Origin: Paraniabella ginsengisoli | GTDB lineage: Bacteria; Bacteroidota; Bacteroidia; Chitinophagales; Chitinophagaceae | NCBI RefSeq assembly: GCF_022513635.1 | Contig: NZ_JAKWBL010000001.1 | Span: forward strand, 248,001-312,000 | Direction: 5' to 3' | DNA length: 64,000 nucleotides | Part shown: in pieces, positions 45,801-47,833 of the stretch | Numbering within the stretch: the stretch's first letter is position 1 | Layout: every line of letters starts with the position of its first letter | Position numbers and translations under genes: made by a program | Notes under the pieces: model-generated | Seen by the model: only the letters and a program-made list of their open reading frames with translations | What the model was told of the DNA's origin: nothing | Database searches by the model: none

Positions 45801-47833
45801 TTACGGTTCTATCCAGGCTTCGTTATCTTTTAGTAAGTTGATCAATTCGTCTACAGCTACATCACTATTTACATTTCTTTTTACTACTTCTTTTCCTTTA
45901 TATAAAGTGATTTTGCCGGGTCCGCTTCCAACATAACCAAAGTCGGCATCTGCCATTTCCCCGGGCCATTTACAATGCAGCCCATAATAGCAATTTTTAC
46001 GCCTTTTAAATGATTGGTTACTGATCGAATTTTAGTAGTAGTTTCCTGCAAATCGAACAAAGTTCTTCCACAAGACGGGCAGGAAATGTATTCGGTTTTA
46101 GAAATGCGCATGCGCGTAGCTTGCAGAATACTAAAAGCGGTGTTGTTAATAAAAGCCTCCCCCGGCCTCCTCCGGTGGGGGGGAGGAATAGCGGCGACCG
46201 CTAAGTTCTGTGTCATTGAAACTGTTATAAGCATTGCTGCTCATGCCAAGGCAAAGGCCGTCACCAAAACCATCTAAAAAAAGAGCGCCTGTTTCTGTAG
46301 CAAAATGTATCAAATGCTCATCAGCTGTTTTCCAGTTACTGTCGGTTATGAAAACAATGGGATTGGTGCTATTTTTCTGCTTTAATTTGACACATGCAGC
46401 TCTTACTGTTTGCATCGCATTTTTTGAGTGCTGCTTAAACAAAGAACAGTATTAGGTTTAGACGAAAAGGCTTCTAAATATTTTTCATCCTGCGGGCAAT
46501 CGATCATTACAAAATTGATGTCGCTTTCCGGTTCTTGTATTGCTGCGAAATGTTCTGCATTGTATATGGGAAAATATTTAGCCTCCCCGGCCCGCTCCGG
46601 AGGAGGGGGAGTTTACCTGCTTCGCCCATTGCTCATAAGGAACAATTACTTTTAAAGTACCTGGCAAAGCAAATCCAATATCAGGTTGATTAATATATAC
46701 ATAATCAGCTGCAGCATCAGCAATATTCCATTTATCATCAGCTTCGTTGTATGTATAACCGATTCCCTGTAGCGATTGAGGTGTAATGTTTTCAACTTTA
46801 CTAAGGTCTGCAATTACAACAGGCACTTGTCCACCGCCGATATTATTTACTGCAATGGTTTGGTGGCGTTGGTAAGAAAGTCCGAACGTCCGGAAGTCCG
46901 GAAGGCCGGAAGATTGAACGTCGCCATGCATATTCCCCCTTTGGGGGGCAAGGGGCTGTACCTCTTCACAATATCTTTGCATACTGGTATTTCAAATTCA
47001 GGATCTTCTGTTAGAGATACCCGAATGGTGTCGCCAATGCCATCTTCCATCAACGTTCCAATACCAACTGCAGATTTAATACGTCCTTCTTCACCATCAC
47101 CTGCTTCTGTAACACCAAGATGTAGTGGATAAATCTCTCCAAACTCATCATTCATTTGTTTGATCAATAAACGGTAAGCCTGTACCATCACCTGTGGGTT
47201 ACTGGCTTTCATACTCAGTATGATCTGGTGGTAACTTTCATCGCGGGCGATACGTAAAAACTCCATTGCGCTTTCTACCATGCCGATTGGCGTGTCTCCA
47301 TAACGGCTCATAATGCGATCGCTTAGGCTGCCATGATTGGTGCCGATACGCATAGCCGTTCCATATTCCTTACATATTTTTACCAACGGCGTAAACCGTT
47401 CGCGAATGCGATCAATCTCTTCAGCATATTCGGCATCGGTGTATTCTATCTGTTCAAACTTTTTCTTATCAACATAATTACCCGGATTAACGCGGACCTT
47501 TTCAATGATTCTGGCGGCTACTTCCGCAGCATTAGGCGTAAAATGAATATCGGCAATAAGTGGTGTAGTATAACCTCTTTTTCTAAGCTCGTTTTTAATA
47601 TTTAGTAAATTCTCGGCATCTTTTTTCGAAGGTGCTGTAATGCGCACTAGTTCTGCACCCGCTTCAATACAGCGAATGGTTTGCTCTACCGTACCCATTG
47701 TATCCATTGTATCGGTAGTCGTCATCGTTTGCACACGAATAGGATGGTTATTGCCAAGCAATAAATCTCCGATTCTTACCTCTTTGGTTAACAGTCTTTT
47801 ATATTCAGTGAGCGATTCCGCAAATAATTCCAT
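45801..47833 (-). CDS. ispG: 4-hydroxy-3-methylbut-2-enyl-diphosphate synthase IspG, long form (several frameshifts, embedded repeats)
   Basis: IspG is the Fe-S enzyme of the penultimate MEP-pathway step to isoprenoids. The TIM barrel reads PIRVQTMTTTDTMDT, LVRITAPSKKDAEN, IADIHFTPNAA, VRVNPGNYVD, MRIGTNHGSLSDRI and LHLGVTEAGDGEEGR. The Fe-S domain has Cys ligands in ISCPSCGRTLFD and IMGCIVNGPGE. Between them lies the extra domain of the long form (NNIGGGQVPVVIADL ... FLDGFGDGL). Breaks at 46420-46425 (T6) and 45959-45962 (C4) are homopolymer losses; three others lie inside GC-rich repeat elements within the gene (46155-46190, 46581-46612, 46875-46957). Repaired, the frame reaches a TAA at 45801, giving about 680 residues. 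The -7 box TATCTTTG (47838-47845) lies four bases before the ATG. Confidence 0.93.
46155..46190. repeat. GC-rich palindromic element inside ispG, copy 2
   Basis: Plus strand AGCCTCCCCCGGCCTCCTCC then GGTGGGGGGGAGGA. The arms pair, and the composition is far above its surroundings. On the coding strand it sits between NSFNDTEL and INNTAFSILQATR, a place where related enzymes, as I recall them, have only a few residues. It codes a Ser/Pro/Glu/Gly-rich insert ending in Glu-Ala. Confidence 0.7.
46581..46612. repeat. GC-rich palindromic element inside ispG, copy 1
   Basis: Plus strand AGCCTCCCCGGCCCGCTCC then GGAGGAGGGGGAGT, clearly the same element as at 46155-46190 and in the same orientation. 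On the coding strand it lies between VPYEQWAKQV and KYFPIYNAEHF and reads Ser-Pro-Ser-Ser-Gly-rich residues ending in Glu-Ala, the same exit frame as the other copy. Confidence 0.7.
46875..46957. repeat. CCGGAAGTCC ladder and CCCCCTTTGGGGGG hairpin inside ispG
   Basis: A ladder of GTCCGGAAGTCCGGAAGGCCGG units (46880-46911) and a hairpin-forming TTCCCCCTTTGGGGGGCAAGGGG (46932-46954) lie inside the coding sequence between KDIVKRY and YQRHQTIAVNNIGG. The first type has a relative between genes at 11266-11299 (GACGGAAAGACTGGAAGACGGAAAGTCCG). One base is missing within it to restore the frame. Confidence 0.65.

Follow-up and report, generated by a model that had tools for sequence, protein, structure and literature searches.

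Palindromic repeats in ispG of Paraniabella ginsengisoli as likely remnants of a nuclease-bearing element of core enzymes

The ispG gene of Paraniabella ginsengisoli (genome G000) lies within a 64,000-nt window, the whole stretch of DNA that was analysed, and it carries repeat sequences at three places inside its coding region, which raises the question of where such repeats come from and whether they are read as part of the enzyme. The repeats had been reported in a first-pass annotation made from the sequence and were found again here, as two bulged palindromes of about 36 nt (inserts 2 and 3) and a hairpin with a ladder (insert 1), the ladder being a repeat type distinct from the palindromes (Table 1). 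They had been assigned to loops of IspG, with conserved sequence resuming after each and with variability predicted among close relatives; in the alignment the length did vary at all three points, close relatives included, and conserved residues were seen to take up again behind each insert. The statement that the inserts lie in frame failed for this copy. The six pieces of the gene are read in frames 0, 2, 0, 2, 0 and 2, and the five frame changes fall one in each of the three inserts, one in an A run and one in a G run, while the residues conserved in IspG continue through all six pieces. A TCCGCCAGCTGGCGGA palindrome was also seen adjoining ispG at about 45740-45762 of the window, one of three copies of this 16-mer in 464 kb of the genome. 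Another dispersed repeat, of the GAGTGCGACGCAACGAAGATGCC type, was observed at 12023-12048, 25999-26020 and 44498-44523, its 12-mers occurring up to 11 times in 464 kb.

Table 1. Position of ispG, its repeat inserts and its frame changes in the window
Feature	Position	Strand	Evidence or remark
ispG (GcpE family)	45801..47833	-	PF04551, E 7.8e-112; read as six pieces in two frames
Insert 1, after KDIVKRY	46869..46957	-	C6/G5 hairpin and CCGGAAGT ladder; frame change inside
Insert 2, after EQWAKQV	46578..46613	-	36-nt palindrome, matrix 23.2 bits; frame change inside
Insert 3, after SGRRY	46153..46188	-	36-nt palindrome, matrix 26.6 bits; frame change inside
A run with frame change away from inserts	about 46435..46445	-	frame reading of the ispG pieces
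G run with frame change away from inserts	45955..45962 (about 45958)	-	frame reading of the ispG pieces

Sequencing error of the long-read, homopolymer kind would likely account for the broken frame, because seven of nine other core genes of P. ginsengisoli (HolB, CarB, GcvP, MiaB, LeuRS, DUF255 and AroA) are also in pieces and because the ispG of Niabella hibiscisoli (L167) is interrupted at this A run too, though it has no inserts there. The dehydratase and UvrA were the two open genes of the nine, which were compared with one joined query and judged open or in pieces by reading the result table; in G003, G005 and G008 the same genes were open in 26 of 27 cases, the HolB of G003 having stops. 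The P. ginsengisoli assembly comprises 4.5 Mb in five contigs and is 92% complete. An intact ispG elsewhere, which would have made this copy a dead duplicate, was sought in the assembly by GcpE profile match and none was found, the other listed match being part of the same gene. That ispG is truly dead, broken by the insertion of repeats, would agree with the five frame changes and with the lack of an intact copy in an assembly of this completeness, but the conserved residues run on through all the pieces, two of the breaks are at homopolymers outside the inserts (one of them common to N. hibiscisoli), most of the other core genes compared are broken too and a relative has an intact ispG with repeats of these kinds. 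We therefore consider a dead gene very improbable. This copy, whose inserts are not in frame as assembled, may be translated through them if the breaks are such errors.

The relative in question is Niabella sp. labscale reactor_MAG1 (G001), whose intact ispG has repeats of matching kinds at these three loops, all in frame. Loop 1 has the ladder SSGLPDFRTSGL, with the ladder peptide SGLPDFRTSGL as in insert 1 of P. ginsengisoli, loop 2 (after EQWAKQV) the palindrome peptide SSPSFGGGQGEA, and loop 3 (after SGRRY) the partial palindrome NSPSFG; the palindrome peptide NSLSSGEGREEA stands in frame in loop 2 of IspG in G023. The frame was open throughout in 108 of 109 IspG loci (some genomes being counted twice, and P. 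ginsengisoli not included), with N. hibiscisoli as the exception. Palindrome-like inserts at the three loops were recognized by eye, without control, in about nine genomes (G001, L028, L029, L030, L135, L148, L163, L182 and L210); the lengths at site 1 were obtained by script, and those at sites 2 and 3 by eye. In the predicted structure of G001 IspG (mean pLDDT 73.7, pTM 0.77), the pLDDT fell below 50 in the three insert loops (296-317, 416-421 and 547-564) and in seven further short stretches elsewhere. Ladder-like repeats of other kinds were noticed by eye at site 1 in L138, L140, L141, L168, L169, L175 and L028. The site 1 loop seems to be a hotspot at which repeats of several types gather across the family, the ladder of insert 1 being another of them. 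None of the IspG frames examined was long enough to contain a nuclease of the kind described below, short repeats being all that was seen in ispG.

The palindrome was searched for in other genomes with a degenerate pattern, and the same pattern read backwards was used as the control. With at most one mismatch, 21 matches at 20 distinct places were obtained in P. ginsengisoli against none backward, and 16 in G001 against two backward; among the other 23 genomes, 18 had no match and five had one. The exact pattern occurred in 16 of 147 genomes of the family (Chitinophagaceae), with no backward match in any listed genome; the listing has 43 rows, 13 of them without a locus and outside the locus-level examination. 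A matrix derived from 36-nt palindromes lying beyond the window detected no third palindrome in the 64-kb window, where the sole decoy match overlaps one of the two real ispG palindromes, and it gave four matches and two decoy matches (one overlapping a real copy) in 400 kb of P. ginsengisoli. An origin of the inserts by chance, as low-complexity or slippage sequence that tolerant loops accept, would suit the variable length of IspG site 1 and the several repeat kinds found there in the family. Such an origin is nevertheless extremely improbable, as the palindrome matches lie far above the backward control and the matrix finds two in ispG against four in 400 kb.

A hairpin scan and a GC-window scan (464 kb of P. 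ginsengisoli and 319 kb of G001) proved either too strict or lacking in specificity, and they were replaced by the pattern with its backward control and by the matrix. A second pattern was located at five places each in P. ginsengisoli and G001 and in none of four other genomes, and a k-mer census of samples from the two genomes indicated that further repeat families are present. The G001 sample loci L052-L071 contain a long AT-rich repeat (TTGTCAAAGACCAAAGTTAATTTGAAATTGAAAGCAATTCACAAC type) in 27-29 copies, perhaps a CRISPR array.

The first-pass annotation had held that such sequences are intergenic outside ispG, and this was borne out in P. ginsengisoli, where 0 of the 20 distinct pattern matches are internal to frames of at least 200 aa, but not in G001, where 12 of the 16 palindromes are. 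The hosts of the 12 internal copies, named from the sequence (LeuRS was checked against PDB), are LeuRS (twice), GcvP, CarB, a MiaB-like and a HolB-like protein, dTDP-glucose dehydratase, AroA, UvrA, a DUF255 protein, IspG and a membrane-fusion-like protein; of the remaining four palindromes, one is near an N-terminus, two are in no long frame and one precedes a start. When orthologues from the genus were aligned at 10 of the 12 sites, and also for IspG, the loop was seen to be lengthened or replaced, by 13 residues at LeuRS_b, and for most of the internal sites orthologues without a palindrome were aligned. The dehydratase of G008 has a decayed palindrome copy. In P. ginsengisoli, palindrome peptides were read by eye in frame in the DUF255 protein and UvrA, as well as in the part of GcvP that precedes a break. 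The intact in-frame copies in relatives support the earlier proposal that dispersed palindromes lengthen the loops of core enzymes.

Across 70 loci, 69 distinct palindrome elements were recorded, 28 of them internal to frames and 41 not. All 20 internal palindromes in their own orientation are read in one phase, as are all 17 for which none of the three phases contains a stop; in the opposite orientation, six are read in one phase and two in another. Read in the favoured phase, the palindrome gives a linker rich in Gly, Ser and Pro (xSPSFGGGRGEA). Selection for such a linker peptide would be the simplest account of the single phase, and phase-biased insertion may be another. In a conjugation-ATPase-like protein (L072 and L251), a palindrome occupies the same site in two genera in different phases. 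The G001 LeuRS (L131) also contains a KFQISNFKFQI repeat peptide, which looks like a further segment derived from a repeat.

A longer form was found in the LeuRS of G153, where a DUF559-like domain stands in frame between two such palindromes. DUF559 is present in 15 of 39 relatives and in 76 of 147 family genomes; among 128 matches at E ≤1e-20, the open frame reaches 250 residues or more in 62 and 1000 or more in 33, the 128 lengths having been copied by hand from the match table of the family genomes. As shown by Pfam, DUF559 (PF04480) lies inside a host domain or between host domains in all 10 ORFs analysed, namely five LeuRS, AroC, CinA, MetRS and two methionine-synthase-type proteins, and no splicing (Hint) domain was present among the Pfam matches of these ten ORFs at E 1e-5. 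Palindromes accompany the nuclease on one or both sides in LeuRS, AroC, MetRS, MetH and CinA. The LeuRS of P. ginsengisoli is among them, with LTPNPSPKGEGD upstream and LPSPLGEGPGVR downstream of the nuclease; its insert has about 40 residues beside the 108-residue nuclease, and given this and the Pfam matches of the ten ORFs, the segment is predicted to stay in the protein. In 30 aligned AroC proteins, nearly all had a TSPQTPLQRRGA-like peptide before the nuclease and a SPSPLEREPEGEV-like one after it. Protein searches with embedded queries, restricted to long proteins at E ≤1e-10, returned 820, 103 and 1253 matches in overlapping sets, from which 120, 103 and 120, respectively, were listed. 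Among the matches listed, the hosts (by Pfam content or source name) included LeuRS, AroC, MetRS, MetH, RecG, TsaB, guanylate kinase, CinA, adenine deaminase and IleRS.

The LeuRS sites occur in three states, namely with the nuclease, with palindromes alone and empty, and filled and empty sites were found within one genus. Site A measures 181 residues in P. ginsengisoli against 31 in G001, G003 and G005 and 34 in G008. Among the 120 LeuRS-type proteins listed (of 820), the nuclease was at site B in 56, at both sites in 29 and at site A alone in 21, and 14 did not fit. Four of these 120 (P0081, P0112, P0118 and P0119) were seen by eye to have a palindrome pair at site A with no nuclease there. 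The solo palindrome LeuRS_a of G001 sits at site B, where G023, G094 and G137 carry the nuclease with palindromes.

The lineage of the nuclease was analyzed in two trees. Because embedded queries and the limit to long proteins favour embedded relatives, the clade test was redone on copies found with the Pfam model. In the resulting tree of 38 domains (L277, L281, L282, L288 and L294 of 43 loci, in which no motif was found, were dropped from it and from the matrix test below), 24 of 25 embedded copies, that of P. ginsengisoli included, fell in one starred clade without stand-alone copies; the embedded copy L280 fell outside it. In a tree of 101 domains, the labels for host site require 19 changes, against a mean of 70.4 when shuffled and a possible minimum of 10. 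This clustering by host site is what vertical descent would give, and DUF559 could on that basis represent old, vertically inherited domain fusions, the palindromes being codon-biased linkers and not mobile DNA. We think this quite improbable, given that presence is patchy within one genus, that the labels change 19 times where 10 would suffice, that a 1702-residue MetH (P0003) has three DUF559 domains at three sites and that the same palindromes are also found outside genes.

The DUF559 domain matched 3hrl (E 2.8e-20 by sequence, TM 0.87 by fold) and resembled in fold the homing endonuclease I-Bth0305I (3r3p; TM 0.80, normalised to 3r3p), with a weak sequence match (E 0.62); for 1vsr the values were TM 0.48 and E 0.25. 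The AroC-nuclease model used had middling confidence (mean pLDDT 61), and only matches at the level of domains were taken from it. We take I-Bth0305I to belong to an EDxHD/Vsr-like homing endonuclease family.

The palindromes and the nuclease tend to occur together. DUF559 was present in 14 of the 16 family genomes with the exact palindrome against 62 of the 131 without it (p = 0.002, kinship uncorrected), and among 16 genomes of the genus, palindromes were found in six, DUF559 in six (the match in G010 being weak) and both in five (p = 0.008, kinship uncorrected). According to the matrix, a palindrome scoring above the 99% level of 364 controls was located upstream in 13 of 28 embedded loci, downstream in 12 and on both sides in nine, six of these nine having the expected opposed orientation; for stand-alone DUF559 loci the numbers were 2 of 10 upstream and 1 of 10 downstream. 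Inverted similarity of the flanks was higher than in any of 135 controls in 15 of 27 embedded loci and six of nine stand-alone ones (L301 and L317, of the remaining 38, were also left out of this test), so that some stand-alone copies, too, have palindromes beside them. The other 12 of the 27 embedded loci did not exceed their controls, and direct similarity was also high in some loci (L287, L319 and L321).

Alternatively, the palindromes might be independent REP-like repeats moved by another enzyme, for example a Y1 (RAYT) transposase, with nuclease genes settling beside them because they are targets and not because they are ends. Most of the palindromes seen have no adjoining nuclease, two of the 16 family genomes with palindromes lack DUF559, and Y1_Tnp genes were present in 21 of the 25 genomes searched. 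Their counts, compared by eye, do not track the palindromes, however: G006 and G007 have 11 and 10 such genes and no palindrome, and P. ginsengisoli has two against 21 palindromes. In many loci the nuclease has a palindrome on either side, the two often opposed, and palindrome pairs without a nuclease occupy the same LeuRS site. Independent repeats of this kind are accordingly judged unlikely, though less so than the other alternatives weighed here.

We favour the reading that the ispG palindromes are solo remnants of a longer element with a DUF559 nuclease, probably a homing one, whose segment is predicted to be translated within the host protein and left unspliced; on balance this is probably correct. 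We are evenly divided on the wider proposal of a new class of selfish elements, in which a homing-type nuclease with palindromic ends would reside unspliced inside the polypeptides of core enzymes, move among the core genes of Bacteroidota (LeuRS, AroC, MetRS, MetH, RecG, CinA, TsaB and others) and leave 36-nt palindromes behind as new loop linkers, as in this ispG. Mobility of the element is likely. The nuclease would cut a host allele that lacks the element, which would be copied in when the break is repaired from a filled allele. Because the ends would be translated as in-frame linkers and the nuclease as a domain that folds, the enzyme is predicted to remain functional. Should the nuclease be lost, palindrome pairs or single palindromes such as those of ispG would be left; separate insertion may be another source of solo palindromes.

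Nuclease homing and protein-coding palindromes are each already known, and no published account of such nuclease-palindrome elements was found in the literature searched, which lay mostly outside subscription journals. As far as the cited descriptions go, the Rickettsia palindromic elements (RPE) are repeats of about 150 bp inserted in frame in unrelated genes with a similar peptide (PMC10969869, PMC3733652). The likeness to them put forward in the first-pass annotation holds in that palindromes stand in frame in genes, and it misses the longer forms with a DUF559 nuclease between the palindromes. With RPE and the protein-coding palindromes of Wolbachia, the elements reported here share a palindromic repeat in frame in unrelated genes with a similar peptide; compared by description (PMC10969869), they differ from RPE in their length of about 36 nt, their hosts (Chitinophagaceae, of a different phylum) and their longer, nuclease-bearing forms. 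REP elements with RAYT transposases are likewise short bulged palindromes dispersed in the genome, and they are stated to overlap coding regions rarely (PMC12306157); here 12 of 16 copies in G001 and 0 of 20 in P. ginsengisoli lie inside long frames, with no link to Y1_Tnp counts visible by eye. Inteins with homing endonucleases are similar in that a nuclease stands in frame at fixed sites of conserved enzymes, with patchy presence, one lineage per site and some moves; unlike them, the ten ORFs yielded no splicing domain among their Pfam matches, and the segment is predicted to stay. I-Bth0305I has the same nuclease fold and is listed as a mobile-intron protein, whereas the nuclease described here lacks an intron and shares the reading frame of its host protein.

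To our knowledge, protein-coding palindromes have been described in Rickettsia and Wolbachia alone, and no enzyme that mobilises them is known. The present elements would add a candidate enzyme, a series of forms (nuclease and palindromes together, palindromes by themselves, and empty sites) and hundreds of instances found in nature among well-studied enzymes, so that how selfish DNA makes new protein segments would become directly testable. Many tRNA synthetases and biosynthetic enzymes of Bacteroidota carry this nuclease domain, which annotation would call a domain fusion.
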